64,000 nucleotides of DNA, taken from NCBI GenBank assembly GCA_021234155.1, contig JAJEKV010000001.1:16685491-16749490 (forward strand), read 5' to 3'. The position numbers and the translations under genes are program-made. Numbering within the stretch: position 1 is the first letter of the stretch; the number at the start of each line of letters is the position of its first letter. The DNA comes from Isoetes taiwanensis (Eukaryota > Streptophyta > Lycopodiopsida > Isoetales > Isoetaceae). Shown piece by piece: positions 13,559-56,520 of this stretch. The notes under the pieces are model-generated. The model was not told where the DNA came from. It ran no database searches and saw only the letters and a program-made list of their open reading frames with translations.

Positions 13559-13569
13559 ATAAATACGAA

Positions 13570-14790
13570 ACTACAAGGGATCGTCGACGTCCAACGACGT
13601 CGCGTCGTCGATGAACGTCGGATCGTCGTCGTTGATCGACGACATCGTCGTTCAACGACGACAACGTCGTTTCGACGTCGTTCAACGGCGGTCATTAGGG
13701 CCGGCGTGTCGGTTTGCTGCGTGGCATGGGTGCTTCCGCCAAAGGCTGGCGGGCACAACGTGTCAAAACACGCGTCGCTAACGTCGTTCAACGGCGTTTC
13801 CGCAGCCCGTCGTCGCCCGTCATGCGTGGAAATGGGCGATTGCCAAAGCTGGCGGCCTGCGTGTCAAGACAGCGCCCGGCGTCTTGCGTCGTTGAACGGC
13901 GTTACTGCTTGGCCCGGCGTGTCCGCGTCACGCTAGCGTGGCATGGTCTTTGATGCCAAAATTTGGCTTTGCACTGGCGTGTCAAGAACCGCGTCGGCTT
14001 AAACGTCGTTTAACGGCGTGACCTGAAGGAATTTTTTTTTTTTTTTTTTTTTTTTTTTGCCAAATAAAACCCTAACCCTAACCCTAACCCTACATCCACG
14101 TTATAAGTGGATCCATCGATGAAATGCTTGTTATTCTTATTTTTGAGTGTTCTTCCCTATCTTGCTATAATGGTCCGTGGGTTGAAGACCACCTTCCGCG
14201 ATATGTTCCTTCTAGCGGTAATCCTCCTCCTCCAAGGGAAGACAACTCCGGCAACCCCCGCTTCTCCCGTGAGAACCCTCCCTTCACCATCGTGGCAAAG
14301 ATGAGTGAAAAGGAGCTTCGATTGCACTAACATCCGGCGTTCCATGCGGGAACGCGGCGGTAGAATGGCTCCAGAGCCAAACAAAGAAAAACGACATTAA
14401 TGGTGCGGATAATGATGCAAATGGTTGCATCAAACATCCCACGTCCTCGGGATGGACATAAGTAATGTATAAGCTTTTTTTATGAATGGAAACAATAAGT
14501 TTTTATCTATTTGTGTTGTCGTTGTATAAGCTTATTTTATGAATGGGAACAATCGGTATTTTTATTTATTTGTATTATTTGTATTGTATGTTGTTTTACG
14601 TTATGTTAAACAATCCGCGGTTGGTCGTTTAAACGGCGTTATGATCATTTGGCGTCGTTAAGCGGCGTCATGATCATCGGCGTGGCATCGAGGCGGCATC
14701 GGCGATGTGGCATGCCTAGGTATCGGGGCGGCGTCGGCTTGGCGTCGTTAAACGGCGTCACCGCGGGCGTCGATAAACGGCGTCAAATAT
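13570..14790. repeat. Left CACTA subterminal repeats
   Basis: The near-palindromic motif CGTCGTTnAACGGCG or CGTCGTTCAACGACG recurs at about 13584, 13643, 13675, 13783, 13887, 14004, 14628, 14653, 14742 and 14769, in otherwise AT-rich surroundings. Subterminal arrays of short motifs bind the CACTA TNPA-type protein in the known En/Spm element. The cluster is split by a stretch (about 14100-14460) with coding-like composition. Confidence 0.75.
14032..14091. repeat. T27 run and four telomere-like AACCCT units
   Basis: Twenty-seven T (14032-14058) are followed by four AACCCT repeats (14068-14091). The unit is the 6-bp TTAGGG type, not the usual plant TTTAGGG. Four units are too few to call an interstitial telomere; a telo-box-like promoter element is equally possible. 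Confidence 0.6.
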
Positions 14791-14954
14791 GGCGGGAACC
14801 CGGCCTTTCGGGTTATTTACTTGTTATTTTCACTTTCGTTTGTTTGGGATTTTTTTTTGCGCGTGGGTCTTCATAAGGTAAGATCTACGCTTTAATCTTT
14901 GTGTTAGAGTTAAACACCTCCAAATGCTAATAGATTAGAAGATTGAATCTTGAA

Positions 14955-16880
14955 AGTATGTTAAAAACTTGAGGGATGCATGATCAAAGTGCTTGGTGGG
15001 TTCCATCCCGAGAATGGAGAAGACTAAATGTATCGGGTTTATGCACCTCGAGCGAAGTTTCAATCTTCATAGATTACAAAAGATTTGAAAGGTTGCGTAA
15101 ATATAAAGGTCTTGATTGGAAGACTCCATTTCAAATGGAAGGGACTAGATGTATCGGGTTCGGGGCACCCTTCAATCAAATGCTTTCTAAATATCATAAG
15201 CGTTGTATGAATCTGAATCTTAAGAATATACATTTGATAAAATCATGAAAAAACATGGATATTTATAATTATTATATTATTACATGGTTTTTATTAATAT
15301 TTTTATTGTTTACTAGAAAAACAACATGGATGACGTCGAAGGAATTTGAGCGTAAAGTGAATGAAAGCTTTGAGAAAGTTACATGGCGACTTGCGCAAGA
15401 ATGTTACCCCAACAATTGCCACAAATAGTCCAATTAGACCCGTGGACCTAGTCTTCCCTAGAGGCTTTGGGGTGGTGTGCATGAAATGAATGCATGCCGA
15501 TGTATGTACCATAAACATGTTTGAATGATTAGTTAACTTTATATCTTGATGTTACTTTTTTTGCGGTTGTACTTGACCAGAGCGGTTATATTGCAATTGT
15601 TCGATGTGCAAAGGACAAATAAAGCGGATGAGAAAAGGCTGTCCTCGACCATGTTGAAAATATGGTGAATGCGGAATAAAATCCGGTGCTCGGGCCGCAC
15701 ATGTGGGGTATTCCAACGAGGTATAATACCGAATCTTATGAACTCGAATCAACTACTCTCATGTACTTGAATCGATGTCTTAACTTAGTTTGCTTGTATT
15801 TTGTTAGGAAGAAATTGAGAATGAAGTGAGCTCGAAAAAAGTATATAGATTTTGGGGTTATGTTGTCATTGGAAGTAGATGATGTTGATACTATGAATGC
15901 GTTCATAGAAAACCCTACAAAAAGAAAGCCATCAACTTTCTCAAAGAGTATCCCATTCACGTGATAGAACTTCGTCGTGCAATGGCCGTTGCCAAGATTG
16001 GAGGGAATGACAATGTTCATCAAAATTGGAATGTACTAGATCATGTCGAAGAAAATAATCTTCCACCTTCACTAGTCCATTTGGTCCAACCCTTCTGAGA
16101 TAAAGATCGTAAGAAATTCAATGCATGGCCTAGAGGCAAGCCAATTATTTATGGGGAGCAATTTACATATTGGGGTAGGCGTACATGATTAAAAAATAGT
16201 GGGGTCCCGGTGCTTTGGCACAGGATTATATATATTATGACTAGTGTGAAAGTCAAAGATGGTATGCATTGTTCCTTTAATGCCATATGTAGGTCCTGAA
16301 TATAACTTCGGACACTTGGCATAAATTGAGTAAGCATCGATGGCGCATGCTCATCTATGGCCTAAATTCAAATGCACGAACAATATCCAAGCCCGTGACT
16401 ACGCAAAGCTTCACATATATTGATGGTCGTCCTCGGTTGCATGGAAACCTTGCTTGCTTTTATTAATAGCTCTATCGAGAATCCTGAAGCTACCAATTGT
16501 GAATTTGTCGAGGCAAACAAAGACCAAGAAGATTTTTTTAGCCGTAAAATTGGCGGAGATATATCATGGTTTATGCTATAAAAACTTTGTGTATTGGTGA
16601 TGAATTGTTCATTGAATATGAATACGGTAGACCAATACCGGAGGTCCTTTGATGATGTACTCAAATTACTCATATAATTTTTTGTCGGAATGCACCATTT
16701 TTCTTCTTCTTCTTGAATTCTTCTTCTTCTTCTCTTGGAATGAGATTGCACATATTGAAGATAAATGTGTATTATATCTTCAATATATGCTTTGATTATG
16801 ACATAAAATTTTATATTTAGATTCGTTATTAAATGCTTAAAATTTAACAAACCACGGGCTCTCAATGTATGTATCAATCA
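14955..16880 (+). pseudogene. Degenerate coding region between left terminus and TNP2
   Basis: Fragmentary plus-strand frames suggest a broken element gene. At 14976-15248 a 90-codon frame contains two related blocks, WWVPSREWRRLNVSGLC and DWKTPFQMEGTRCIGFG. At about 15810-16085 pieces read SSKKVYRFWGYVVIGSR, FLKEYPIHVIELRRAMAVAK and HQNWNVLDHVEENNLPPSL in shifting frames. I do not recognise these as TNPA, Ulp1 or another known CACTA companion. The frequent frame changes may be sequencing error, so a longer protein could hide here. The 5' block resembles coding-like repeats at 51.48 kb. Confidence 0.35.
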
Positions 16881-16899
16881 CGCATATATTTACGTTTAA

Positions 16900-18660
16900 T
16901 CGGCGTCTGCGGGGTAGGCAAGTGGATATAAGACCACATCAAAGCGTCTTGAATTGGCGACATCAAAAGTCATTGCGGATAGCGAAATTAGAATACATTG
17001 AAGCGGTATGGTACAAACATGGGCACAACGCATAATGAAGAGTACAATGATGAAGATGAGCGAATACGATGATGAAGATGATGACAATACCCCTATGGGC
17101 GACTTCATGGAAGTTGAGGAACCCATAGCCGACATGTTAGATGCATTTGGCCCAATCTTCGACAACGACCTAGATGGCGATATAAATACTCCTAACGATG
17201 GTCATGAAGATCACGTTTTTATTGGAGGAGGCGCATAAAGCATTATATCCGGTGCAAGCATATCTAGATTGGCGACATCTTTATTGATATTAAACCTTCA
17301 AAGCCAAATTCAAATGGAGCAATGCGGTTATTCGACTTTGTTAGAGTAAAGTACAATTGCAATCACTTGACTTATTGAATTTGTAGTTGAATGTATCGTA
17401 AAAGGTCTATTTTATACGAGGTTATTGCAAGAAAAATACTCCCACAAAGGGAACACTATGCCCAAAAGTCGCCTTTGAAATAAAAAATATATTGGCGGCC
17501 TCTTTGGTTTAGGCTACCATAAGATTCAACTTGTCCAAATGATTGCATGGTATATTATCCTGATGACATCTACAAGAACACGAAACATGCCCTAAATGTG
17601 GTGCCTCTAGGTACAATCACGGATGCCAAGGAAAGACCGTCCCCGATGAAGGTGGTTAAGCTACTTTCCATTGATCCCTCGCGCCAAGGCTATTGTTTCG
17701 ATGTGAATCTCTAGCCGCTCATGGGTTGGTGTGCATAATGCGTCGGTGACAATGTACTCCGCGCATGGTTAGTGGCTGCAAGCAATGGAAGCATATTGAT
17801 GAAACATGGCGAATTTGGAAGAGAGCCCGCGAAATCTCAGTTAGGGTTGGCAACGGATGGTGTTAATCCTTATGGGCGTCAATCAGCCCGCGTGGTCAAC
17901 TTGGCGGTGGTGTTGATCAACTATAATTTACCACCGTGGTTACTCATGAAGACTAGCCATTTAATGGTAGTACTATTAGTTCGGGGACCGAAGAAGCGGG
18001 AAAGTCTAGATCCATATCGAAAATAGTTATTGATGAGCTTTTGACATTGTGGAGTGAAGGTATTGAAGTTTCACGATGTCTCAAGAGAACTTTCGTCTTT
18101 GAGCGAAGATTTACCTTGAGACAATCTTAATGTGGACAACGGCGATTGGCCTGGTTTGTATGAACTCTCACGGACTCCAAAATTAATGCGGATATGCGGC
18201 ATGTCACTTGTGTGGGTTTGAACAGTTGAACTCTCGCCGGGTCAAGCGGCATTGCATAAAATGTCTATGCAAACTTCAAGAGATATCGCCAATGGAAAAT
18301 GGACTTCGATACGTAGGTCCAAGAGAAAAACATTGCGAAGAGCCTCCCAAAAGGTTGACAATGAGAGATTGGGGTAACATGTGGGATCTTGCAAAGGAAA
18401 TAAGGTTAAGGGAATGAAGTGGAAAGCATCCTTCTTCCTTCTACCCTATTGGACGAAATTGAAGATCCATCATCTTCTTGATCCCATGCACATCTTTAAA
18501 AAACGTTTGGCGTCTATTTGGAAGCATGTCACCGGACGTAAGGACACGAGATCATGACACGAGAAGATCTACAAGAAGGCGGATCAAAATCTAAAGCATG
18601 GTTAAATGTCGAAGAAGGAATAAGGCCACAAGTGGATTGGATCGTGCCTAGAATATGTAG
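16900..18660 (+). pseudogene. CACTA TNP2 transposase, N-terminal and core part
   Basis: TNP2-type transposases excise and insert CACTA elements in the nucleus. Visible in order on the + strand, through several frames: YIEAVWYKHGHNA (about 16990-17030), the end of a transposase-associated domain; an acidic linker with DDNTPMGDFMEVEEPIADML; a zinc-ribbon piece CPKCGASRYNHGC (17588-17626); LGLATDGVNPYG (17841-17876); NYNLPPWLLMKTSHLM (about 17919-17966), followed by GPKK; WSEGIEVS (about 18050); a YVGPREKH piece corresponding to YMGHRRFL; and FFLPYWTKLKIHHLLDPMHI (about 18435-18495), then FKN. The order and spacing fit Transposase_21/TNP2. Frameshifts and stops occur every 50-150 bp. Given nanopore-type noise in this region, the true copy may be more intact than it looks. 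Confidence 0.85.
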
Positions 18661-20558
18661 CATAATAACGGGGGTTTCCTTTGTATTTTTATGCGCTTTT
18701 CACTAAGGTTTTGCTATGATTTTGTGGTGTATTTCAATTGATGTACTAATCGTACATCTAGAGTCTTGATCACGCTTTCATTATTTTTATGGCACTTAGA
18801 CAATGGTTTATCCCCTCAAAAATAAAAAATTTCTAACATGGCATGCAAGGCTCGAGAGCTTTACTTTAGGGTTCTCCTAAAATGATTAGGGTAAATCGTG
18901 CCCTCCCAAATCGTCTGTCACGTTCTTACCGTGCGCTCGTGTGGCAATTTCACAATGGCGAGAACCATGGAGGGATTGGATGGCGAAGCGATTTTTTCTG
19001 GGTGCTTCAGTGGCAATTTAAATGGCGCGAAACCATGGAGGGGATTGGGCCCGGCTGGCGATTTTCCATGGTTGTAGTAATGCTCTTATGCAAAGTGGCT
19101 GAAAGCTTCCAATTCGGTGTAAGAAGGTACATGGTTTCTTCTCGAGCAATCATTCATCCTCCAAGAATGGCCTATCTTTTAAAAGCGTAATGCTGGACCT
19201 GCCCGTCATGCATTGGATCACGATTGGATCTGTTGTAGACGTTGTAGGCCTCTGTTGTTTTACCCTCTTCACATTATTCATACCTTCCTAAATATCTGAC
19301 AATGGTTGAAGCATGTTTTCTCTGATTCTCTTAACTCTTTCGATGGATGTTGTCAAAGAATCTGAGTTTCGAGGTTTGCGTTTGGCCATTTTTCCAATAA
19401 TTGATTTAGGGATAATGGAAGCAAGGCTCTATGAGCTTTGAATAATCCGAATACTTTGTGAAATCAGCAAAGCTCTCCAACCTGCTTGCTTGCCTCTCCG
19501 ATTGCACATAAACCGCCTCTTCCCAAGGATAATGTATTCTCAAATAAGCATTAAGACCTTTGGCAAGCACCTTTAGAAGCGTTTCTTCAGTACAAGAACA
19601 AAATCTTCAACGTTACGCAATTGATTGGTTGCGCTGATGTCTTCTTGCTTAAGCTGATCTAAATCATTTTTAGCTCGGTTCCACCACTTAGACCGAACTC
19701 AACACAAAGGTTTCAAAATCTCCCTCCCAGACAATCCATGCAAATCAATACAACAGCCACTCCATTACATCACTAGGCGAGGTAATTCATCCTTAGGATA
19801 CTTGTTGTCTTGACCGCACCTCGGATAATAGCATGTGGAAGTGTTGTCTTCAAGTTCATGGCAGCGGCAAGAGCAGTTTGTGTCCTCTTCTTTGGATTGC
19901 TTTCCATGAGCACATAGAGTTAGCTTAAAATGTTTTCATGATCATGAACAGTTAGGAGGTCCTTGAAGAGGGCGGCTTATAAATTTATGTAGCCAAGAAG
20001 GCGGGAATCCATGGCCTAGATATCATGCTAAACACTTACATAATTTGTTGTAGGTCGAATGAAGTTCTTGAGTCTTCTTCAAGGTACCGCGCATAGATAG
20101 AACATCTTGGTTGACCAGCGAGAGAAATTCATAGATCCTTGAAGAAGAGAAGCTTCTTATGCAAGCAAGGAGAGGATGAAGAAGCGATGGAAGAAGTTTG
20201 GAAGAAGTTTGGCGAGCTTCGCCCTTTGTTGAAGCGATGCATATTGTGCAACTCCTGCCCGACTTTTGTAATGATTTTCATCAAAGACCATACTAATCCG
20301 GTTGGCCATGCTTAACACAAAACATTGCATGCACATGTGAAAGCACCTTGTAAGGTCCGCGAGAACCTATTATATTAACTATGTTCTCTACTTTTTTCAT
20401 AAATTAAGATTGTATATTTGATTCGGAGATTTGAATAGTTTTCCATAAACAAGGTGCCCAATTGTAGATAATCTTTGCTACACATATTGCTACATATGCG
20501 TTATATTCTCACGCCTCATTTTTTTTTTTATGGCCCGAAGGACAAAAAAAATTTTAGT
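18661..20558. other. TNP2 intron with possible gag-like debris
   Basis: The transposase reading is interrupted between about 18.66 and 21.0 kb, consistent with an intron or insertion. Minus-strand pieces at 19.4-19.75 kb (NQLRNVEDFVL, then AYLRIHYPWEEAVYVQSERQ) faintly resemble a retrotransposon gag, but I cannot confirm it. Plus-strand 18882-19190 contains a short internal repeat (TGGCGATTTT / GGCAATTT blocks). Confidence 0.3.
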
Positions 20559-20563
20559 ATAAT

Positions 20564-20998
20564 AACCAACACATAACTACCATTGACATTAATAAATATA
20601 ACCATTGGAACCAACACATTTAAATTAAAATCCCCTTAAACCCCCTTTGGTTTGGGTGCATATTCACCACGGGGGGGCGTGGGGCGCGAGAGCCCTCATA
20701 ATTGTATTTTTTGCGTCTGAAATCAACACCATATAGTATTAGGTTGAAATCTTATAGTATTTTGCGAATCTTGTTATACGATTATAGCAAATCTTGTACT
20801 TGCATACCCCACAAATGAGGAACTTTTCGTGCGGTGTAGATTAAGGAATATGGAGGAATATGCCAATCCGGCGACTCTCGATGCCGGAGTCACCCCGTGT
20901 GAATATGCACCCAAACCAAAGGGGTTTAGAGGGGATTTTAAATTAAATGTGTTTGTTCAATGGTTATATTTATTAATGTCAATAGTTATGTGTTGGTT
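20564..20998. mobile_element. Fold-back MITE, about 435 bp, in the transposase intron
   Basis: The left arm from AACCAACACATAACTA (20564) and the right arm ending TAGTTATGTGTTGGTT (20998) are reverse complements over about 130 bp, with a few mismatches and indels. They include CCCCTTTGGTTTGGGTGCAT and TGACATTAATAAATATAACC. ATAAT flanks both ends (20559-20563 and 20999-21003) as a possible 5-bp target duplication. There is no coding capacity. It was inserted just before the next transposase exon. Confidence 0.75.
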
Positions 20999-21005
20999 AT
21001 AATGT

Positions 21006-21578
21006 TCGGCGATCAAGGCAATAAAGACTCCGACGGGATATATGCATTCGTTGCGTAATTGTTTCTCTAGCGAAGGGAGTTAAGCGGGTTGAAATCTCAT
21101 GATTGGCATAAGATGTTGCGGTTTGTTATGCCTATTGTTACAACGAGGGGTAGATCTGGAAGAAATTCCACTACATGCAATATGTCTCCTATCGAGTTTT
21201 CGAGGTTAAATGCAGTTTAGAAAACACTTTCGATCTTGAACTCTCACTTAACTTTTTCTTTCTTTAATGATATTTAGATGGATTACAAGGAAGGAGATGC
21301 CGACAAATGAAATTCGGACATGCGAACTAAGATTAGTTGAGGCATGTTGTATGCTAGAAAAGAATTCCCAACAAGTTTTACGGACATACAAACTCACTTA
21401 CTAGTGCATTTAGTGGGCGAAGTAGAGCTACTTGAGGCACAACAAATCCTAGATGGATGTTTTTATAGAACGCTTTTTAAGGTCCTCAAGGACTTCGTGC
21501 GTCGTCAAGGCAAGGCCAGGGTTGGTTGCATGGGGGTTGGTTGCTTGAGAGTCATTATTCTATGTCACTTGAGTTCTT
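21006..21578 (+). pseudogene. CACTA transposase C-terminal part with DUF4218, truncated by the array
   Basis: Downstream of the MITE the transposase resumes: AIKTPTGYMHSLRNCF (about 21008-21056), then GLKSHDWHKMLRFVMPI (about 21082-21132), the hallmark KSHDWH region at the end of TNP2. From about 21299 comes DUF4218: EFPTSFTDIQTHLLVHLVGE, VELLEAQQ, and FKVLKDFVRRQGKAR, which corresponds to the family pattern of a HLxxHLVxE core followed by LKxfVRxxARPEGS. The last recognisable residues (about SLEFL) lie at 21566-21579. The satellite starts at 21581, so the gene is cut within or just after DUF4218. I found no convincing continuation right of the array. Confidence 0.8.
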
Positions 21579-21955
21579 GGTTCTAATGCTAACCCTTTGA
21601 CCTAGACCTTCTCCAAAAATTCGAAAAATGGGCGTGTCTTTGGAGATGAATTAGGGATCGGTGGCAAAAATCGGAATTTATTTTCGTGCAATGCATTAAT
21701 TCGAATTTAATGGATGTGTTGCCCACTTTGCCAAAGCGCCCCCGACTTCTAATTGCCACATGGAGGGAGGACAGGTCAAACTCCGTTCGTCGGTTCCCCG
21801 CCGCTATCGTTCTCCGATGCGGCTTCACGGCCCGCGTTCCAAGCACCAACGGACTAGGACTCGGCCCCAAAACGTAAACCCTTCTAGAGCACGGCAGCTC
21901 AGGGGTTTCGTTTGAACCCTCTCCTTGTCCGGTCGGCGGGACCCTAGCGGCGTGT

Positions 21956-22890
21956 CTTGAAGTGGAGTTGGGGTGTTGGCCTTGAGCGGACCCTAAAATC
22001 CCTCAGGGAGGCTTGCTTTCCCCAAATTTCCTCTCCCTAAGGCCACGGGAAGAGCGGGCGACCTCCCCTCTCGGGAACCACGATTTGGCTCGCCAATGGA
22101 CTCGAAACGTTGACATTGCTCACGGAAACCAAGTTAGTGGCGAAGACCCGGCCCCAACTCAAACCCTTCAAAGAGCTCACTTCCATCCCACGGGGTTTTC
22201 ACGTTTGGCCTAGGATGTGCATGGGATCTTGTCGACTTTCGCCATGTCTTTCCTTCTGGAGTTGGGGTGGTGGCGGCTCCCTTGGACACTAAAATCCCTC
22301 AGAAAGGCTGCTTGCCCCTAATTTCCTCTCCCCAAGGCCACCGGGAAGGGCGGGCAGTCACCTTTCACACAAAGGCGTTTTGGAGCAGCGATTTGGCTCC
22401 TCAATGGACCTTCCCGAGGGGCATTGCCACATGGATCAAGTTGGATAGTGGCCGAAGACCGGGGACTCGGCCCCAAAGCGTAAACCCCCTTCTAGAGGCA
22501 CGGCAAAGCCCACGGGGTTTCACGTTTGGGAGAACCCTCTCCTTGTCCCGGTCGGCGGGACTTTCACATGTCTTGAAGTGGAGTTGGGGTGTTGGCCTTG
22601 AGGCGGGACACTAAAATCCCCTCCAGGGCTGCTTGCCCTAGACCCTCTCCCCAATTGGCCACTTTGGGAAGGGCGGGCAACCTCCCCTCACGGAACGCAA
22701 TTTTAATTTCTTCCAATGGACTCGAGGAATGCCGGCCGGTTCTACCACAGGGGATCAAAGGCCCAAACTGGCCCGAAGACCCCTTGCTCAGGGACTCGGC
22801 CCCCAAAGCGTAAACCCTTCTAGGCACGGCCACCCACGGGGTTTCGTTTGGGAGCCCTCTCCTTGTCGGTCGGTTTGGACCTTCATGTGT
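21956..22890 (+). repeat. Three short (300-320 bp) derived monomers at the left edge
   Basis: CTTGAAGTGGAGTTGGGG or its variant recurs at 21956, 22256, 22572 and 22891 before the regular spacing of about 1.1 kb begins (next 23969). In the last two short units the sequence jumps from GTGGC-GAAGACC directly to GACTCGGCCCCAAAGCG, dropping about 790 bp of the full monomer. The first short unit has a different, mixed join near 22140-22215. Confidence 0.8.
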
Positions 22891-25800
22891 CTTGAAGTGG
22901 AGTTGGGGTGTTGGCCTTGAGCGGACCCTAAAATCCCTCAGGAGGCTGCTTGCCCCAAATTTCCTCTCCCCAAGGCCACAGGGGCCCGGACGGGCGACCT
23001 CCCTCTCGGAATCGCGTCGACTCTGCCAATGGACTCGAGCGTCGACATTGCCACAGGGACCAAGTTAGTGGCAGAAGACCACGAACTCAAAAGCGCCAAA
23101 GTAGCTCACTTCCATCACACTGTGGTCAATTGGCCTAGGATGTGCATCGCGGGGATCTTGTCGTGGAGGCGTGAGTGTTTCCTTCTTTTAAAACGGCCGT
23201 GTAACTTGCTCCCTAGGGTAATTTAAATTATTCGGGCGATTTGGGAGTCTATTTGCCATTCGGAACATCCCGTGCGACGACAAAACGATCGCCCGGTTTC
23301 TACAAAGTAGACATCGGGGCCCCATGCGGTTTGACAAGTTCTCGGGACCGATCACGGAATCTTTTGGACCTTCGAAGAGGGGCCCTGACGGAGGATCCAA
23401 CGGTCGGATAGGGGGCGGGCTCGGGGAGGTGGTCGTTAAATCTCGACCCGGGGAAGCTGCCGGGAAGGGCTGCCTCGGGAACTTTTGGATCCGCCTCACG
23501 GGGTCAGGACTCTCCCCTCTTGTGAGGGATCCCCAAGGTCCTGGCCTCGTTTGACTTGGGGAAGGGTGCGGCTGGTTTGCCACAGCGGGCTGCCCGGCCG
23601 TTCTAATCTTAACCCTTTGACCTAGACCTTCTCCAGAAATTCGAAAATTGGGCGTGTCTTTGGAGATGAATTAGGGATCCGCTGGCAAAAAGAAATTTAT
23701 TTTAGGTGCAATGCATTAATTGAATTCTGAATGTCTTGCCAGCCAAAAAGCCCCCGACTTCTACGCCGGGAGGAGGAAAGGCCCAAACTCCGCTCCGTCG
23801 GTTCCCCTTGCTCCGGTATTCACCGGAAAGCTCTTCCGGCCCGGTCCCAAGTGCAACAGACCCGGGACTGGGGCCCCAAAGCGTAAACCCTTCTAGAGCA
23901 CGGCAGCCCACGGGGTTTCGTTTGGGAGGCCCTCTCCCTTGTCGGTCGGCGGGGACCTTGCGGAGTGTCTTGAAGTGGGGTTGGGGTGTTGGCCTTGCGG
24001 CCTGGACCCTAAAATCCCTCGGGGCTGCTTGCCCCAAATTTCCTCTCCCCAAGGCCACAGGGGCCGGGCGAGGCGACCTCCCTCTCCCAGAATCAGCGAT
24101 CGACTCTGCCAATGGACTCGAGCGTCGACATTGCCACAGGGGACCAAGTTCGTGGCGGAAGACCACCGAACTCCAAGAAGCGCCAAAGTAGCTCACTTCC
24201 ATCACACTTTCGTAGTCAATTGGCCTAGGATGTGCATGCGGGATCTCTCTTGTCGTGGAGGCGTGAGTGTTTTCCTTCTTCGCCAAAACCGGCCGTGTAA
24301 TTTGCTCCCTAGGGTAATTTAAGCCATTCCGGACGATTTGGCGGGGTCTATTTGCCATTCGGAGCATCCCGGTGCCCGCGACAAAAAGCGATCGCGGTTT
24401 CTACAAAGGCCCCGACATCGGGCGCCCGCGGTTTGACAAGTTCTCCCGGGGCCGATCTGGAATCTTTTGGACCTTCAGAAGAGGGCCCCACGAGCGGAGG
24501 ATCAGCGGTCCGGATAGGGGGCCGGGGCTCGGGGAGGGTGGTCATTAAGCGTCGCGACCAGGGGCTTGGCGCCGGGAAGGGCTGCCTCGGGGAACTTTTG
24601 GATCAGCCTCACGGGGTCAGGACTCTCCCCTCTTGTGAGGGATCCCTGCAAGGTCTGGCCTCGTTTGACTTGGGGAAGGGTGCCAGGCTCGGTTGCCACG
24701 GGCTGCCCGGCCGTTCTAATCTAACCCTTTGACCTAGACCTTCTCAAAAAATTCGAAAAAATTGGGCCGTGTCTTTGGAGATGAATTAGGGATCCATGGC
24801 AAAAACCGGAATTTATTTTAGTGCAATGCATTAATTGCGAATTCACGAATGTCTTGCCCTTTGCAAAAAGCCCCAGACTTCTACTTGCCACATCGGGAGG
24901 AGGAAAGGCCCAAACTCCGCTCGTCGGTTCCCCTTGCTCCATTCTTCTCTTTGCTTCCGGCCGGGTCCCAAGTGCAACAAGCCGGACTCGGCCCCCAAAG
25001 CGTAAACCCTTCTAGGCACGGCAGCCCGCGGGGTTTGCGTTTGGAGCCCTCTCCTTGTCAATCGGGGGGACCTTTGCCCGTGTCTTGAAGTGGAGTTGGG
25101 GTGTTGGCCTTGCCTTGGACCCTAAAATCCCTCCGGGAGGCTGCTTGCCCCAAATTTCCTCTCCCCAGGCCACGGGGCCGGGCCAGGCGACCTCCCTCTC
25201 TCGGGAATCGCGATCGACTCGCCAATGGACTCGAGCGTCGACATTGCCACAGGGGACCAAGTTCCGTGGCCAGAAGACCACCCGAACTCCAAAGCGCCAA
25301 AGTAGCTCACTTCCATCACACTCGTGATCAATTGGCCTAGGATGTGCATGCGGGGATCTTGTCGTGGAGGCGTGAGTGTTTCCTTCTTTAAAAACCGGCC
25401 GTGTAACTTGCTCCCTAGGGTAATTTACATGCCATTCGGACGATTTGGCGGGGTCTATTTGCCATTCGGAGCATCCCGGTGCCCGCGACAAAAGCAGTCT
25501 TGCGGTTTCTACAAAGGCCGACATCGGGGCGCCCGCGGTTTGACAAAGTTCTCCCGGACCCGATCTGGAATCTTTTGGACCTTCAGAAGGGGCCACGAGC
25601 GGAGGATCAGCGGTGGGATAGGGGCAGGGCTCGGGGAGGTGGTCATGGCGTCAAAGCCAGGAAGGGGGCCCGGAAGAGCTGCCTCGAGAACTTTTGGATC
25701 CAGCCTCACGGGGTCAGGACTCTCCCCTCTTGTGAGGATCCCTGCAGGTCCTGGCCTCGTTTGACTTGGGGAAGGGTGCCAGGCTTCGGTTGCCACAGCG

Positions 25801-29298: not shown

Positions 29299-29398
29299 NN
29301 NNNNNNNNNNNNNNNNNNNNNNNNNNNNNNNNNNNNNNNNNNNNNNNNNNNNNNNNNNNNNNNNNNNNNNNNNNNNNNNNNNNNNNNNNNNNNNNNNN
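29299..29398. other. Assembly gap, 100 N
   Basis: Exactly 100 N, the conventional unknown-size gap. The sequence on both sides is in the same monomer phase (AAAGCCCC before, CGACTTCTACTTGCC after), so either nothing or a whole number of monomers is missing. Confidence 0.98.
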
Positions 29399-46335: not shown

Positions 46336-46343
46336 TTGGTATG

Positions 46344-46365
46344 CTTCGTTCAGTTACGTATTGCT
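46344..46365 (+). other. Oxford Nanopore adapter remnant
   Basis: Eight bases after the N gap the sequence contains CTTCGTTCAGTTACGTATTG followed by CT, an exact 22-base match to the end of the standard nanopore ligation adapter. The monomer begins at once after it (TTCTCGGAGGAGGAAAGGCCC). This is technical sequence, not plant DNA. Confidence 0.92.
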
Positions 46366-48663
46366 TTCTCGGAGGAGGAAAGGCCCAAACTCCATCCGTC
46401 CCGATTCCCCTTTGCTGCGTATTCTCGGCTTATAGCTGCCGGCGGGTCCCAGTGCAACAGACCCGGGGACTTCGGCCCCAAAACGTAAACCCAGCTAGAG
46501 CTGGCAGCCTGGCGGGGTTTTACGTTTAGGAGGCCTCTCCTTGTCCGGTCAGTAGGGACCTTAGCGCGTGTCTTGGAAGATGGAGTTGGGGTGTTGGCCT
46601 TGAGCCTTGGACCCTAAATCCCCTCCGGAGGCTGCTTTTAAATTTCCTCTCACGGGCCACAGGGGCCGGACGGGCGACCTCCCTCGAATCGCTGATCGAC
46701 TCGCCAATGGACTGGAGCGTCGACATTGCCACCAGGGACCAAGTTAAAGTGGCGGGAAGACCACCCGAACTCCAAGAGCGCCAGTAGCTCACTTCCATCA
46801 CGCACCAAGTAGTGGGTTAACAGGATGGCGAAATGCGGGGATCATGCGTGGAGGCATTGAGTGTTTCGCTACTTAAAAGCCAGGCGTCTGCTTGCTCCCT
46901 AGGGTAATTTAGCCATTCAGGACTGATTTGGCGGGGTCTATTTGCCATTCCGGAGCATCCAGGTGCGACGACAAAGCAGTCTGCGGTTTCTACAAAGGCC
47001 CATCCCAGGGGCCGGTTGACAAGTTCTCGGGACCGTCGGAATCTTTTGGACCTTCGAAGAGGGGCCTGAGCGGAGGATCAGCGGTCGGATAGAGGCCCAG
47101 GAGCTCACGGGAGAGTGGTCGATAGCGTCGCGACCCAGGGAGGCCGAGGAAGAGTGCTTGCCGGGAACTTTGGATCAGCCTCACGGGGTCAGGACTCTCC
47201 CTTGTAGGGGATCCACGGAGTCAGCCTCGTTTGACTTGGGGAAGGTGCGGCTCGGCTGCCACCGCAGCAGAGGCTGCCCAGGCCGTTCTAATGCCCCAAC
47301 CCTTTGACTGAGCCTTCTCAGAAGATTAGAAGGGGTGGTGTCTTTGGAGATGAATTAGGGATCATTGTAAAAGCGAGATTTATTTTCGTCGCGATGCATT
47401 AATTGCGAATTCTGGTGTCTTACCCTTTACCAGCCCGGCTTCTACTTGCCACATCGGGGAGGAGGAAAGGCCCAAACTCCGCTCCGTCGGTTCCCTTGCT
47501 CATTATTCTCGGCTGCTTCGGCCGGGTCGGTATGAGACCGGGGACTCGGCCCCAAAGCGTAAACCCTTCTAGAGGCACGGCAGCCCACGGGGTTTCGTTT
47601 GGGAGGCTCTCTCCTTATCGGTCAGTAGGGACCTTTAGTGTCTTGAAGATGGAGTTGGTGTTGGCCTTGAAGCGGACCCTAAAATCCCTCCGGTGTTTAG
47701 CGCCCCAAATTTCCTCTCCCCAAGGCCTGCAGGGACGGACGGTGACCTCCCTCTCTGGGAATCGCTGATCGACTCTGCCAATGGACTCGAGCGTCGACAT
47801 TGCTACAGGGACCAAGTTCGTGTGAAGACCACGAACTCAAGAAGCCAAAGTAGCTCACTTCCATCACCTCGTGAATCCCGATTGGCCTAGGATGTGCATG
47901 GGATCTTGTATCGTGGAGGCGTGAGTGTTTCCTTCTTCATAAAGCCGTAGTGTAACTTGCTCCTAAGTGAATTTGCCATTCAGGACGATTTGGCGGGGTC
48001 TATTTGCCATTCCGGAGCATCCGGTGCCCGGCGACAAAACAGTCTTGGTTTCTACAAAGGCGTAGACATCGGGGCCCAGCGGTTTGACAAGTTCTCGGGA
48101 CCCGATCTGGAATCTTTTGGACCCAACCCTAAGAAGAGGGGCCTGAGCGGAGGAATCCAGCGGTCGGATAGGGAGCCGGCTCGGGAGGTGGTCGATGCGT
48201 GCAGCCACGAGGGCGCTGCCGGGGAAGAGCGCCTCGGGGAACTTTTGGATCCGCTCACGAGATGGGACTCTCCACCTCTTGTGAGGGATCACGCAAAGGT
48301 CAGCTCGTTTGACTTGGGGAAGGTGCATTTCGTTTGCCACAGCGGGCTGCCCGGCCGTTCATCACTAACCCTTTATTTTCGTTATTCTCCGAAAATTCCG
48401 AAGATTGGAATTATTGCTGGAGATGGATTAGGGATCGGCCAAAAGCGAGATTTATTTTTACGTGCAATGCATTAATTGCGAATTCTGAATATCTTGCCAC
48501 TGCCAAAGCCCCGGAGCTTCTGCTTGCCACATGGAGGAGAAGGCCCAAACTCCGCTCGCGTCGGTTCCCCTTGCTCGTATTCACCGAACGGCAGCACCAC
48601 CGGCCAGTCCAAATTACAGCGGACGGGACCATTTAAAGCAGTAAACCCTTCTAGAGCACGGCA

Positions 48664-50379
48664 ACAAATTAATTGCCGTGGCGGTCACATTCATATGGAC
48701 TCATTATGGAGTTAATGCGAGTGAATATCGAACTCAAAATTCAAGGTGAGGCGTCGTTGAACCAAGTGTAATCCAAAACCCTTAGCGTTAATCTATGAAG
48801 AGGTACGCAGCCATATATCGAAGTTGTATGTGATCATGCTGCAGTATGGCAAATCAAAGAAGCTCTTCTTGCAGCTTGCATGGTGTAGCTGGGCATGCCT
48901 TGTGTAGATTGTATCGCGGAAGAGCAACTTTGGTGAGCCATATGTTTTGCCTTCCCTTTCTGATCATGGTGAAGTGATTGGCAAGCGGTTTAGTATGAAA
49001 GTATGCAAGTGAAGCTCAATGGTGCACAAGTCGGTTTATTCTAAAGTGGATGAATGTGAGGATGGAGAGAAATCTAAGTGGATAGATAAAGAAGGATAGA
49101 TAAAATACATAAGTAAATCATTGCCAATAGTGCTCCATTATTATACGCTCGGATGTGTTAGTTCATTGGAAGCAATACCCCAGAATCATTATCTGAGTTG
49201 CCTCCTCCCCATCATCATTTCCATTTTGATGCAATTCCCCAACTATCATTCTCCACGTTCCTTGTTATACGTATCATTGTTACCAACTAGCATCATGTTG
49301 GTTCCTCCCCATCGATATTCCGAGTTTCAATGATGTTCAATGCTTTAAAATCTGACTAAAGGGCCACGAGAACATTTCTATGCATTCTACCTCGAGAAAG
49401 ACTGATCTCTATCTTTATTAATGGTTTGATTCCTTTTTATATGTAGTTCTGAAGGAAGATGCAATGCATACTTATCTTGAGGAGGATGTTTTGCAGGGCG
49501 TTTAACAAAGCTGTTTTACATCGAGACGTTGGAGTTGTTAATCGATTAATAGTTCCTCCCGTAATATAAATGATGATTACTTGACAGATGTGGCGAGAAT
49601 TAATGCCAAGGTAACTCACTTGGTACCTTAATGGCTCCCACTGTTCATTGGTGAAGACTTACTTTGGCATAGTGTGGAGGATATAATCACGATGTTATGT
49701 CGATGGAATTTCGTCGTGGTCTTCCAAAGGTCGGGGCCAGCGCTATATTATCTTTGGAATGGATGTGTCACATGGGCCCCATTCTGCGTCAAATTCACCA
49801 TCAATTGCAATTGTAAAGTTGAGCTGTGTGTGCACTTGACATTTCAAATTTCATTCATTGAATTTCTATTTTAACTTGCGGTGATGGGCTCTGGTTAATA
49901 GCGATATCGAGTTTAGCCGCGGGTCAAAACACAATCCGAAAATGTGGAAACTATGAATCGTTGTCTGAAAAGAACCTTACGAGGCATGATTAAGTAACAT
50001 AAATAACTTTTCAATCGATATTGAAAAGGATAATTAACTTTGCTTGTAGGGGAATTGTTGAAAGGGTTTGCGAGGCTCGGTAAGTATAGGAACAAAGCAG
50101 GTTGCCTCACGGCTTGTTGTTGTATTCAGGTTCCTACCTTATGGCTATATATGTAAGTTCTCTCGGCTTTCGGGTTCAATTTTAATAGAATTTTATTGTA
50201 TTGTGGACTTGAAGGGGATGGTGTCCGTGATCGGTTGCAAGTGTTCTTAATGTAGGGTTAGCAGCTTAATCACGAAATGGTGTTAATGCGAGATGTTGGT
50301 TTAGAAATGCGATTTTGAAATGTTTAATAAATTGATTTTTGCAGGAGATGATGATGTTTAAAGGGCCGCGTGGGTTGCA
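48664..50379 (+). other. CACTA interior right of the array, degenerate coding pieces
   Basis: Plus-strand pieces read PSLSDHGEVIGKRFSMKVCK, KVDECEDGEKSKWIDKEG (about 49030-49100), then DVLKEDAMHTYLEEDVLQGV (about 49444-49505) and NDDYLTDVARINAKVTHLVP (about 49568-49630). None is a motif I can name, and none obviously continues the DUF4218 protein. One CGTCGTTGAACC copy of the subterminal motif lies at about 48753. Confidence 0.35.
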
Positions 50380-50465
50380 ACACAAAGAGCGTGCGTTATA
50401 GGCGTCGTTTAGCGGCTATGGCCGGGCGTGGTTAAACGACCTCACTGACGTCGTTCAGCGACATA
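50380..50465. repeat. Internal subterminal-repeat cluster
   Basis: Copies CGTCGTTTAGCGGC (50401), CGTGGTTAAACGACC (50433) and CGTCGTTCAGCGACA (50451) match the terminal motif of the element. A GC-richer leader (CGGCTTTTTAGCGCCCTAG) follows, as it does after the left-end cluster. This may be the end of a second related CACTA element or a promoter-side repeat. Confidence 0.6.
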
Positions 50466-50937
50466 CGTAACTTTTTATCGAGGAAAACAGAGCCGGCTTT
50501 TTAGCGCCCTAGTTTTGGTTCCTGGCGGTGGAGGGCGTTTTAAATGCGATTTTTTGGTAGCGAGGATCATCCTTGCGGTCCTTTCAAGCTTCAAGCAAGC
50601 ATCAAAAGGTATTTCCATTTGGATCGATAAGCTCTATTTTTTAAGATTAGGCTTGTTGTTTGATAGATTTAGGGCTTCTTGTTTTCTTGTTTGTTTTTCA
50701 ATCCATCCCATTTCTATCCTCCTCTTCTTTCCATCCTTGTTTTTCTTCAATCCATTTAGCCTCTTATTGAAGTATGAATCGAATCCTCCTCCTTCTTCTT
50801 CAATGATCTTCCAATCATTGGTTTCTTCCTTCCTAATCTTCCGTTCTTCCAATCTTCTATTCATTTCTTCTTCTTCTAGCTTCTTCTTCTTCACCACTTT
50901 CTCATTCTATTCAATCTTTCTTTCCTATCTCCACTTT
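50466..50937 (+). other. T/C-rich leader
   Basis: Strongly pyrimidine-rich sequence. The open frame through it and the TTC run is a low-complexity artefact (poly-Ser), not a credible protein. Confidence 0.5.
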
Positions 50938-51047
50938 TCTTCTTCTTCTTCTTCTTCTTCTTCTTCTTCTTCTTCTTCTTCTTCTTCTTCTTCTTCTTCT
51001 TCTTCTTCTTCTTCTTCTTCTTCTTCTTCTTCTTCTTCTTCTTCTTC
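50938..51047. repeat. (TTC)n microsatellite, about 36 units
   Basis: Uninterrupted TTC repeats over about 110 bp, with a second short run at about 51057-51078. The surroundings are also TTC/TTCC-rich. Confidence 0.97.
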
Positions 51048-51479
51048 ATTTGTACCTTCTTCTTCTTCTTCTTCTTCATACATTTTTTCCATGGAAGGGC
51101 GTGGTGAAAACCGAGGCCCATTCTTCCTCTATTTTTATTACAAGAAGGGGCGTCGTTGAAAGCGAGGCCTTCTTTTATATTCTTCCTTTTTTTTTATTTT
51201 CATTTTTACATGTCAATATATAGTTCTTTTTAATTAACAATGTAAATAGTTTAATGTCGATAGTCTTTCCAGCGTGAGATAGATCTTTTTTGTTTTTATT
51301 TATTTCTTTATTTATGTAAGTTTTCTAATTATTGAATGCCTTTATTTTTTTGCATATACCACTAATAATAACAAAATCATTAAGCTCTTGGAAATCGATT
51401 TTACTACATTTCGAAGACATTCTAGGTAAGAATTTGAGTTTGAGTGGGAGAATAAAATTTTAATGTTTTATTTAGGTTA

Positions 51480-51870
51480 AAAAACTTGGGGAGACTGGAC
51501 AAAGGGCATGAGTAAATCCTTTGAGTGGAAGACTAGGTGTTCGGGGTCAAATCACCCAGATTCTCTTAATTTTATTGATTAATGTATTTAGTTTAGAAAA
51601 ATTAGGGGAGACTTGGACAGCAAAGGGCATGAGTAGAGCTCGCCTTAGTGGAAGACTAGGTGTTCAGGTCCAAGCTCCACTTGGATTCTCTTAATAATTT
51701 TATTGATTAATGTATTTAGTTTAGAAAAATTTGGGAGACTTGGACAAAGGCATGAGTAAACAAAGCGAGTGGAGAAGACTAGGTGTTAGAGGTCCAAGCT
51801 CCTGCTCTCCCTATCTGTTTATTTTTTATTAATATATATCAATAAATAGAAATCTTCTGTGGGATTGGAC
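51480..51870 (+). repeat. Coding-like tandem repeat, about 120-130 bp, three copies plus a partial
   Basis: TTGGGGAGACTGGACAAAGG or its variant recurs at about 51487, 51604 and 51729, with a partial at about 51862. Each copy goes on through GGCATGAGT, GTGGAAGACTAGGTGTTC and TTCTCTTAA plus ATTTTATTGATTAATGTATT. The first copy translates as WGDWTKGMSKSFEWKTRCSG, close to the DWKTPF..MEGTRCIGFG block at 15.1 kb, so these look like amplified exons of the element. Confidence 0.75.
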
Positions 51871-53077
51871 AAAGGGCTGAGGGTTTTGAAAAATTGCATT
51901 GTGTTTGCAGTTTCCTAGTTTAAGAATGTTGTTTTAAAGATGTTAGGGATGTCGAAGAAACAGAGTGTGGAGTGGTTAGAGCAGAAAAAAGAATTTAAAT
52001 AGTTGGTTTTAAAAAAAAATTAAAAGGGGAAACTAACTCTTAAGAAGTAGGTAAGATTCATAATGAAGGTTTGAAAAAGTCACAAAAGCAAGATTAACTG
52101 AATCTAAATTGGTTTGTAGGTATGGCCCCATTTGTGAAGACACTAATGATTAGTGAGATTAGGTATGGTCATAAAATGAGATATGTGCTATGAAAGTCGG
52201 CCAGGAGATGCAAGCCCCAGTCAGCGTGCCGACCATTTTGTGGGGCCAATTGAAAAGGAAGTGCCAATTTGAGTGCTTTAAAAATGGCCCAGTCAAGAAG
52301 AAATGTTGATTTCTCTCATGACACACATGTAAAGCCAATGATTGGAAACCCCATGGATGGCCCGAAGACATGTTTGAAGCATTGGTCTTGACTTAAAGAT
52401 CCCAATCTCGCAGGAGCTGCATTAATGTCCAGGAATGGGTGGCTTCATGGAATTCCTCAAAGCCGGCGTTTAGCGGATGCAAAGAACATCATTGCGGATC
52501 TCAATGCACGTCGGTTGGAGGTAATTAAAATGCTTTGCATCGAGCTCTAGTGAGGCAAGGTATAAGCCCACTTTTCTTTGGAGAATCCATGAACACATCA
52601 ATCTTTGTTGATCCCATGCATTAGAGGCCCGTGGATGTAATCGCCTTATTGAGGAGAAACCAACACGCCCTTGCAGTATCAAATCCAAGATCAGCGGAAC
52701 ACAACCTTCAGATGATGAGCTATCTGAGTGGATGGGTTTTCAAGGGCAAAGTAGAGGCGTGAGATGGCTCAAAGATACATGCAGCTTCAAGAGCATCTGC
52801 TTCTAGCTACATCCATTGGACTTGCATATGAAGTTGCTGGCTCTAGTAGGGATACCATAGGGCCAATGGTGATTCTACACTCATGAGATGGAAGACACTT
52901 GCACACTTGTTTGACTATTTACCTAATAACTTATGCGTTTTAGAAGATGGTCGATACAGTGCCTAGGCCAAGAGAAAGAACTGACAAACACATAGAAACG
53001 AACTTAGAGGCAAAATCAAGTTGCCATCGCCCATTATGTTCGGAGATAGCTCTTGCCCTAGCGGAAGGTGTCGTTAG
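51871..53077. other. CACTA interior, no gene recognised
   Basis: Plus-strand pieces such as QAPVSVPTILWGQLKRKCQF and ALVRQGISPLFFGESMNT suggest former coding sequence, interrupted by stops and shifts. No family is recognisable. Confidence 0.3.
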
Positions 53078-53690
53078 AGATCCACAAAAAAGGCCACTTC
53101 ACTCACTTGCAAAAGCTTAATTGCAGAGTCAAATTACATTTTGATGATGAGTACCAAAATGTGTGGGTGGCCATTAATTGATGGGACAATCACGATTCAT
53201 TTTCATGAAATTAGATCCCTTGTTGGAATGTCGGTACTTACTTTGGGATGGACAAGCAAAATATCCATGGTTAGAGGAAGCGTGTTTGAAATCAAGGATG
53301 ATGATACGTGTATGGGGAGACCACGAAATTCATGATGTCTATGCATTGGGATATATTTATGAGATGCTTCTGGATTTAAATTACGAAGCTATCGACGAAT
53401 GGAGTGGTTTAATAATAACAACAATGCAATGGATTAATCCAACCCTTATGTACCAAGCGATGTCTTGACAAGTTGGAGGAGCAAAACAAGAATGATGTGC
53501 CCTGCATTGAAGGCGTATTCTCATCGACCCAAAGCTTAAAGTTGGTATTTGAAGCCTTACAAAGTGTTGGAATATCTTTACCATGGTTGTGAGGCAAAGG
53601 AAACTGACACATGAAGTGCTGGATGCCTTGGGATGTCTCAAAATTGTTGTTGTGCAACTCAAATAATGAATACAATATTGTATATCTTGC
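53078..53690 (+). pseudogene. Unknown protein fragment, weakly kinase-like
   Basis: The most protein-like stretch right of the array. Frames give EIALALAEGVVRDPQKRPLH (about 53041-53105), YLLWDGQAKYPWLEEACL, then HDVYALGYIYEML (53331-53369), DEWSGLIITTMQWINPTLMY, and after a shift PAIEGVFSSTQSLKLVFEAL (about 53500-53560). DVYALGYIYEML resembles protein-kinase subdomain IX (DVYAxGxxxxEML), and ALALAEGV the helix before the catalytic loop. I see no HRD or DFG motif. It could be a captured kinase fragment or an unrelated element gene. Confidence 0.25.
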
Positions 53691-55594
53691 CATGTTTAAG
53701 GTATTAAATTTTTTTTAATTGTCTAATAACCAAATATATAAAAGACACTTTTAATTATTCAAATCCAATGTTTTTGTAATGAACTTCCCATGTTGCTAAC
53801 ATTTGTTGCTTTCCTACTATGTTATTCATACGCCTCCATATAAATAACTTGCAAGTTTTTTGCACATCCAGCAACCATGGGATCTTGACACGATGGCATA
53901 TCTATTGTTCCTGGCACTACTTCTCATCGTGGCTTGGCTTGTATGTGTGACCCTAAACACGCAAGGCCTTTAAAATGAGAAGTTAGTGGGTCGGGTTGCT
54001 TCATACCATAGCCACCTCCACATTGTGTGGTTGGTATGGATTTTTCTAGGATAAAATGTAAGTTAACCATTTATTTTTAACGTTCTAATGTTTTAAATGT
54101 AAGTGTAAAATCACGGTTCGCGTCCTTCTTTTCACATGCATAATGTTGATGCGATGCATTAGTTGTAAAATGGATCTTCTTCTCACCACCACTTGCTTGA
54201 AGAGGCGGAAAAGGACCCTCGCATCCGGTGAGGAAGAGCGAAAGGCGAGGAACTCTAGAGGATATCAACTGGCGATAACCTGAAGATAGGTGGAATGCCT
54301 TGCAATTCCGGGATGTCGCCTTGAAATGGAGATTATGGCAGCGGTACATTAGAATACAAAGTAGAGGCGGAAGTGCAGCCCATGACCCTCCTGCGTCATA
54401 GCTCATACACTCCTTGAGATTCAATCTTGGGCCCGTTCCTAGAGCAGGGGAGAATGAACCCACGAAGGAAGCGTAGAAGCGAGTAGTTTACGTCGAGGTG
54501 GACCTAATTCCTCTTGACTCACATTTTAAAAGATTGTGCACCACGCACCACCTCCCACGAAGGCATCTCTTTCCAATATGAGTGAGTTTCATCTTGAATT
54601 ATGCCTTTTTGTTCACTAACACATATTCATATATTTAATTAGGTATGTTGAGTGTAGTAGCGAAGTTCTTGCGTATGCAGCCTGCCCAGAGATGGCGGTA
54701 ATTTTTTGGAAAGATGGCTAATAATGTCTGATAAGCGTTGCCATAGCGTCCCTGAGAATTGAATGGAACTCGGGGAGCTGTGATGAGGGAAAAGAGAGGA
54801 TCAAGGGAGATTTTAGAAAGCGAGAATATCCAGAGGCTCAAATTAGGGAGAGATCTCATGGAGGGAGGTTTGTTCAAAGCGAGGGAGTGCGTATATTAAA
54901 TCCACGGGGTATTAGGCTCTTTGGTTCTTCATTATAACCTCATTGTATATATTTTATTTATATTTTAAATTGTCGGAAGGCTGACTGAAAGCTCTTGCCA
55001 AAGCTCTGAGGAGTCCAGATAAATTAGCCGCAGCCTATCACAGTTGACTAATGAGGCATTTCAAAGTACATCATCTCTCCCATGAGTGGTATAATTAGAT
55101 GATGCCATGTGGACCTAAGTCCTTGTATTGCATTGTGATGTTTGAAGGCCAACATATTATCAAAGAAAGGGGAAGCTAGAACAAAAGCGTGACTGGGCCA
55201 GTCACAATGACAAGCAAGTGGCGACCATAGTGCCAATAAAGGCTGAATGCGGGTTGGCTTCTGGATGCGCTATTTGTAAGTATAAATTTGGTTTATAATG
55301 GAGTTCTCGAGTTGAACTAACATTAGTTTTGGTGCTCATTCTCACTAAGTCATTTCTTTGGTGCATTTTAAGATGAGCGAAAGACCTTCAAACAAAGTGA
55401 TCATCACGGCCATCAGCGTCACATGCTTCTTGGCGTGAAAGGGGGATGAAGTGTGTATCATTCATTACGGAGAATAATTATTTGTGACTACAATGAACTA
55501 ATTGTTGCGATACAATATAATGCGAGGTAAATGAAAATGAAAGCCAATGAAGAAGAAGAAGGAAACTAACAACTAAAGACTGTATATTTTGTAA
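53691..55594. other. CACTA interior, no gene recognised
   Basis: A GC-richer part at 54.17-54.5 kb has a 128-codon minus-strand frame and plus-strand pieces of similar quality; neither shows a family motif. The rest is AT-rich. Confidence 0.3.
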
Positions 55595-55990
55595 TGTGCA
55601 AATTACATTATGAAATATATTAGTGGATTCAATTTAAATTTTATGCTTTGTTCTTATTATTTGTGATTTTTTGTTATGTTAATTTTATATGATTCTATTT
55701 TTATTCTTAGATTTATTAAACATTTAATTACATATTAAACAATAATGCTTATCTACCATTAATATAATTTAATCAATATTTGTTTCTATTTTTTCCAATT
55801 TTAAATTTTTTAAAAATATTTATTCTCGATTTATTTTTGTTCATATTTAATATTTATTAATACTAGTAATATTATTGATAATATTAATATTAATAAATAT
55901 TACTAAATATTTATTTATATTAAATATTGTTAATTTTAGCGAATATAGATATTAAGCTGTCGGATTAAATCATATTGAATAAATAAATAT
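55595..55990. other. Extremely AT-rich spacer
   Basis: About 400 bp of nearly pure A/T with many small palindromes (for example AATATTATTGATAATATTAA). It ends abruptly at the GC-rich right subterminal repeats. Confidence 0.85.
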
Positions 55991-55998
55991 TTTTATCA

Positions 55999-56520
55999 AA
56001 ATTCATGTCGTCGGTGAACTTGGCGTTATGTAATGGCCGCCCGCGTCGTGGCGTCGTTGAACAACGTTATGCTGCGTGTGCCGGGCAATGACGGTGCGGC
56101 CGACTTGTGAGGAGCCGAGGTGCGATACGCCCGACGCGTCGTTGAGCGGCGATTTCACCTTAGCGGCGACCAACGTCGGCCCTTCTGTACGCGCCAGTGG
56201 GCAGGACATGATGGCTGATACTTTTCGTTGAGCAGCGTTGCAGTCTTGCCCGCATGACCGGCCGTGATCACTTTAGCAGCGATGCCAGCGTGGTACGACC
56301 CGTAATAATGCTATAGCGGCGTTGAGCGGCGTCATATAAATTAAACAAAGGCGCCCGGTTGCGGTAGCGTATAAAAAGCGACGCATAAAGCGTCGTTTAT
56401 CCGGCTTCCGACGTCGAAATAGGCGTCGTTGCTCGGCGTTTTGGCGTCGATCATCGGCGATGCAAAAGCGGCGTCTGGGTGTCGTAATAGGCATCGTAAC
56501 GGGGCTTTGGTTTTGTAGTG
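55999..56520. repeat. Right CACTA subterminal repeats and terminus
   Basis: The motif CGTCGTTGAACAACG / CGTCGTTGAGCGGCG recurs at about 56051, 56137, 56225, 56321, 56391, 56426 and 56447. The cluster ends GGGGCTTTGGTTTTGTAGTG at 56520, the inverted CACTACAAAACC terminus. ATA follows. Confidence 0.8.

Follow-up and report, generated by a model that had tools for sequence, protein, structure and literature searches.

A satellite array inside a CACTA-type element of Isoetes taiwanensis: probable dispersal as part of a transposon family

An open question is how satellites arrive at new places in a genome and whether mobile elements carry them there. It is raised by a locus of the lycophyte Isoetes taiwanensis, at which a 64,000-nt stretch of genomic DNA (hereafter the window, to which all positions refer unless a contig is named) contains a DNA transposon of the CACTA (EnSpm) type. 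The element spans approximately 13,569–56,520 (~43 kb) and encloses a long tandem array of a ~1.1-kb, GC-rich monomer. For comparison the genome was used in the form of 1.66 Gb in 1,110 contigs. The element is most likely one copy of a multi-copy family that carries an embedded array of variable length and has been dispersed by transposition. A probability of roughly 0.7 is assigned to this interpretation as a whole.

Ends and coding remains of the element

The right terminus, TTGTAGTG, ends at 56,520 and is also present on contig C1037. The left terminus reads AACTACAAGGG from 13,569 and equals CACTACAAGGG with an A replacing the first C. Terminal inverted repeats of the CACTA type are accordingly present, the first base of the left one (AACTACAA) being mismatched. 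Across the genome, 24 of the 40 main left-end matches begin exactly at 13,570. An earlier reading, made from the sequence alone, had placed the element at 13,562–56,520. Its right end and the CACTA-type right terminus are confirmed, but the left end is shifted to 13,569.

The 15-base form of the subterminal motif, CGTCGTTNANCRRCG, is found ten times on the + strand of the window. Eight of these matches are located at 13,627–14,743 and two at 56,052–56,137, and there is none between. All ten are thus close to the ends of the element, and the sequence-only reading had likewise noted matching subterminal motifs at both ends. The 7-base core CGTCGTT is less specific (17 matches, four of them in the interior at 48,752–51,151). 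The GC content is ~57% at the subterminal ends and mostly 33–47% in the element interior. A telomere-like (AACCCT)4 run is present in the left subterminal region (14,068–14,092), shortly after a run of 27 T. The segment 55,501–56,000, immediately inside the right subterminal region, is very AT-rich (17% GC).

In a first Pfam scan of ten fragments of the window, Transposase_21 (PF02992, TNP2) and DUF4218 (PF13960) are the sole plausible matches. Ten other fragments of the window give no Pfam match at E-values up to 0.1. A TNP2-type transposase is clearly indicated by PF02992, whereas the proposed DUF4218 part is weak, its score of 22.8 bits being under the 27-bit cut-off of that family. When open frames of eight further TNP2 loci in the genome are compared with the window, they match the interval 16,090–21,580 piecewise, with no match between 18,652 and 21,012. 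The frames in the window are broken and the gene is not intact.

The similarity to transposases ends at the left edge of the array; the 285-residue frame of L002 matches with residues 4–102 only. To the right of the array, no frame from the eight TNP2 loci matches better than E = 0.27. Thus, the array is positioned at the 3' end of the recognizable gene and does not split it, contrary to what had been proposed. The transposase of the window copy looks truncated.

The array and related loci in the genome

The monomers are arranged head to tail from 21,580 to ~48,663, and single matches among them reach E = 0, which excludes chance similarity. The array comprises 20 copies longer than 950 bp and additional partial copies, equivalent to ~24.6 monomer lengths, and has a GC content of ~57%. 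It is interrupted by two assembly gaps (100 and 579 N), so the length and copy number are those of the assembly and may not be the true ones. With this proviso, the monomer size and the array of ~24 copies over 27 kb described earlier are reproduced, the copies being 20 near-complete ones plus partials. A scan of the window against Rfam at gathering thresholds gives no match, and hence no known structured RNA or rRNA. Including the window, four long head-to-tail arrays of this monomer were read (~8–27 kb; one of them has gaps and another is cut off by N), as is characteristic of a satellite.

Three queries were used to find related loci. The left end (13,540–14,800) yielded 867 first-look candidates and the region right of the array (48,660–50,900) yielded 653, with 40 scored for each. 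The monomer yielded 4,873, two of which were scored and fetched (contigs C1037 and C1027). Among the scored matches, the left terminus and the right-of-array flank form 15 pairs (window included) within 100 kb on one contig. All of these have the same order and strand, and no pair is arranged otherwise. An element without the array would be expected to have a left-to-right spacing of ~8.1 kb, whereas the observed spacings range from 7.8 to 52.9 kb. The excess amounts to −0.3 (C1031), 3.5, 3.7, 6.5, 8.9, 9.0, 10.2, 10.4, 12.2, 13.3, 20.7, 20.8, 23.4, 27.1 (window) and 44.9 kb (C60). The extra spacing at the 14 other pairs is probably array sequence, which suggests that copies of the element differ in the length of their arrays.

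On contig C1037 there are two arrays of 8.4 and 8.8 kb, neither of which contains any N. The window right flank 48,658–49,115 recurs ~0.3 kb to the right of both arrays with 85% identity. The left edges are similar as well. The first monomer begins at monomer position 662–666 in both C1037 arrays and at 692–695 in the window array, and is followed by short monomers. These restart at position 959–968 in all six cases, i.e. two in the window array and two in each C1037 array. The left edges in the window and at C1037 are read as homologous. Together with the 15 pairs, the succession of array and right flank, found twice more at C1037, supports the earlier view of one element with an array inside.

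The two C1037 arrays belong to a ~20.8-kb tandem duplication (in C1037:13,770,001–13,810,000) that includes array and right flank; its copies are 92% alike over 10.5 kb. Contig C1027 contains one array of ~25 kb, which is cut off by a long run of N. This run (~6.9 kb, C1027:8,153,069–8,160,000) adjoins the array, continues to the end of the fetched piece and may be a gap or withheld sequence.

Table 1. Positions of the element, its parts and the assembly gaps in the window.
Feature	Position	Strand	Basis
Left terminal inverted repeat AACTACAA	13,569–13,576	+	Sequence read; family form probably CACTACAA
Left subterminal region, CGTCGTT-N-A-N-C-RR-CG repeats	13,570–14,800	+	Motif matches; genome-wide left-end search
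Degenerate TNP2-type transposase gene in short, broken frames	16,090–21,580	+	Piecewise tblastn matches
Transposase_21 (PF02992) fragment	17,739–18,023	+	Pfam scan, E = 1.2e-18
DUF4218 (PF13960) fragment, ends at array edge	21,341–21,583	+	Pfam scan, E = 8.5e-5, below curated cut-off
Tandem array of ~1.1-kb GC-rich monomer	21,580–48,663	+	Sequence comparison
Array left edge: truncated first monomer, then short monomers restarting at ~monomer position 962	21,580–22,919	+	Similar in both C1037 arrays
Assembly gap, 100 N	29,299–29,398		Sequence
Array stretch with long private branches, probably of low quality	29,399–48,600	+	Tree, consensus comparison
Assembly gap, 579 N	45,757–46,335		Sequence
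Right part of element	48,660–56,000	+	Pieces of it recur at C1037 and at C1027
Right subterminal region and right terminus TTGTAGTG	56,000–56,520	+	Sequence read; same terminus read at C1037

Monomer divergence and sequence quality

In the monomer tree, the six monomers of array A1, at C1037, form a clade with a support of 1.0 and the eight good-quality monomers of C1027 form a clade with a support of 0.956. Both are expected if arrays were homogenised after dispersal. The divergence from the consensus is ~12–16% in the five full window copies preceding the first gap, compared to ~24–37% in the copies following it. The later copies carry long private branches.

This divergence is probably inflated in good part by assembly error. 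In all three comparisons between element copies the difference rate is highest at CG among the 16 dinucleotides. Between the first and second copy at C1037, 36 events are found on 201 bases at CG versus 8 on 367 bases located more than 15 bases from a CG. Insertions and deletions account for 329 of 541, 135 of 307 and 312 of 660 difference events in the three comparisons (44–61%), and transitions are about equal in number to transversions. This pattern may result from miscalled bases at methylated sites, in an assembly of noisy reads that was not polished sufficiently. Two observations argue against error as the complete explanation. In the shortest of 11 comparisons, window versus C1037 over 458 bases, the CG effect is weak (0.189 vs 0.129), and at C1037 one poor copy (75%) has no adjoining gap.

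Since the divergence is probably in good part due to assembly error, the age of the arrays is not readable from it, and dating on this basis was rejected. There is a practical warning in this: in noisy assemblies, arrays can look more divergent than they are, and dates derived from the present one would mislead.

Decay by CpG deamination is thought unlikely to be the main cause, as it leaves the insertions, deletions and transversions at CG, which are clearly raised, unexplained. C>T changes at CpG are not raised, neither in the later 14 copies (78 of 1,029 vs 263 of 3,157 at non-CpG positions) nor in the first five (14 of 377 vs 42 of 1,160). G>A changes at CpG show a modest increase in the later copies (150 of 1,037 vs 385 of 3,456) and almost none in the first ones (25 of 377 vs 78 of 1,251). 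A real old subfamily as the source of the poor copies is thought less likely, given their long private branches. The poor copies of C1027 share a short branch with a support of 0.998. When both members of a pair of later window copies depart from the consensus, they do so in the same way in 3,222 cases and differently in 2,911. Possibly, the poor copies retain a real component or a shared systematic error.

Origin and dispersal of the array

CACTA elements move by cut and paste, with the transposase recognizing the ends. In the proposed scenario, a ~1.1-kb GC-rich sequence came to lie just downstream of the DUF4218 region of the transposase and became a tandem array within the element. The family would then have dispersed with the array already inside, the array travelling as cargo of the transposon. 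Each copy's array may then have grown or shrunk through unequal exchange, or through slippage, either in replication or when the gap left by excision was repaired. The window copy is presumably immobile by itself at present and would require transposase from another copy.

The source of the monomer has to be considered separately. The array could have arisen from a segment of the element itself that was duplicated in tandem, as has been proposed for the tnp2-derived satellite of Chenopodium, and whose original has since been lost or changed. This would concern the origin only and is compatible with dispersal of a family. The array starts exactly at the point where the recognizable transposase ends and coding sequence is missing, and the subterminal ends of the element are as GC-rich as the monomer. 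The element interior, however, is mostly much poorer in GC. Moreover, nothing else in the element matches the monomer except for 25 bp at the edge of the array itself; a further match of 15 bp (E = 0.27) is located outside the element. Two of the longest frames of the monomer consensus have no Pfam match at E-values up to 10. Tandem duplication of element sequence is therefore considered unlikely. Because the monomer is matched neither in the rest of the element nor in Pfam, capture is favoured, short of proof: a monomer that was captured and then expanded appears at least as likely as one expanded from element sequence. The earlier proposal that the array expanded inside the element agrees with the element sequence on both sides of it, but this does not show a derivation from that sequence.

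Two further explanations question the unity of element and array. A pre-existing, independent satellite block might have been joined here by a CACTA element or by two pieces of one, with the array being invaded or a piece being captured once. The monomer is indeed unrelated to the rest of the element, and the large number of first-look candidates for the monomer relative to those for the flanks leaves room for free-standing arrays. Yet the array is twice followed at C1037 by the right-hand element sequence of the window, with a similar left edge, and left and right parts occur as pairs at 15 places. A single capture would be seen repeatedly only if it had spread later, which amounts to dispersal of the family. 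An independent block is thus regarded as quite improbable. It is very unlikely that the structure is an artefact of noisy long reads that were mis-joined or over-extended in the repeat, in which case the length of 27 kb and perhaps the join itself would be unreal. Such an artefact would fit the two gaps within the array, the drop in quality at the first of them, the position of the poor C1027 stretch on the side of the long N run and the centring of differences on CG. It does not account for the recurrence of array and right flank on the C1037 contig, where N are absent, and since the poor copy at C1037 has no adjoining gap, gaps do not explain all poor copies. The sequence-only reading had named a join confined to one chimeric contig as the result that would speak against it. 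For the right side this is contradicted by C1037; the left junction is seen in the window only.

Several observations weigh against a dispersed family with an embedded array. There is no matching 3-bp target-site duplication at the ends of the element (the left end is preceded by CGA, the right end followed by ATA); it could have been lost in an old or miscalled copy. The junction of transposase and array is read in the window only: the left flank of the C1037 arrays differs from that of the window and has no transposase match, and the C1027 array ends in N. At C1037 the short monomers have a clean left break (147–162), but the break in the window is not clean (61 and 120, followed by unaligned bases). 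On the right side, 26 of the 41 main flank matches start at 48,730 and eight, including the window, at 48,660, and at C1037 a repeated piece of the flank is located between array and flank. The excess spacing at 14 of the 15 pairs is derived from coordinates and could reflect other insertions or gaps, and C1031 is likewise free of the array by coordinates only. Finally, the monomers of the window array and of the second C1037 array form no clades of their own.

On balance, dispersal of a CACTA family with the array inside remains the preferred interpretation. If many copies carry the same array at different lengths, as may be the case, they would be natural replicates for measuring the growth and loss of arrays. 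A more far-reaching version is possible but doubtful: a large CACTA family would be the main carrier of this satellite in the genome, with the array at the same place in nearly every copy and 0 to ~45 kb long, and the satellite would exist mainly through transposon dispersal. If so, different insertions of a single defined element would allow the birth, growth and loss of arrays to be compared.

Among DNA transposons, Helentrons are of the rolling-circle type. Other mobile elements with satellite arrays are well documented (reviewed in PMC12628747 and PMC9659126). The CACTA element Jozin of Chenopodium quinoa contains a captured satellite DNA array, near-complete ends and a TNP2 transposase, and elements were found on four scaffolds (PMC8978399). 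Its 5.55-kb array of 32.5 monomers of 171 bp is located downstream of the coding sequence of the 16.5-kb element (PMC8978399). The window element likewise has a satellite array 3' of the coding sequence of a CACTA element. It differs from Jozin in its 1.1-kb monomer, its gapped array of ~27 kb, its size of ~43 kb and the position of the array at the edge of a truncated transposase (PMC8978399). The Jozin-type position is seen here in the one element that was read through; a possible recurrence among family members is indicated by the two transposase-free C1037 arrays and by the spacings.

In the Chenopodium satellite CficCl-61-40, a ~40-bp tnp2 fragment is the start monomer (PMC7320549). Both there and in the window a satellite array begins at a CACTA transposase, but the window monomer has no similarity to the transposase region of its element. 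Satellites derived from Ogre retrotransposons in Lathyrus sativus are present as short arrays dispersed in mobile elements, and some have expanded to long ones (PMC7004042). There, as in the window, tandem arrays reside within mobile elements, but the host of the Lathyrus arrays is an LTR (long terminal repeat) retrotransposon and not a cut-and-paste element. The Cg_HINE elements of Crassostrea gigas are non-autonomous DNA transposons spread through the genome; between their defined flanks they hold satellite-like central repeats whose number varies (PMC7492417). In this they resemble the present family, but they are Helentrons. Their repeats are ~165 bp long, with cluster averages of up to ~5 per array and 29.3 in the longest (PMC7492417).

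Searches of the open-access literature, mostly at the level of titles and the beginnings of abstracts, gave no description of a 1.1-kb satellite within a CACTA element. The window element can be regarded as a larger variant of the published satellite-bearing CACTA elements that is distinguished by monomer size, array length and apparent copy number.

Outside the element, two adjacent open frames of 181 and 167 amino acids are present on the − strand at 2,551–3,597. They have no Pfam match at E-values up to 0.1 and may be part of a host gene. Within the right part of the element there are a long TTC microsatellite (50,937–51,077) and a ~123-bp tandem repeat with 2.7 copies (51,469–51,802). Similar sequences of both are found at C1037 and C1027.

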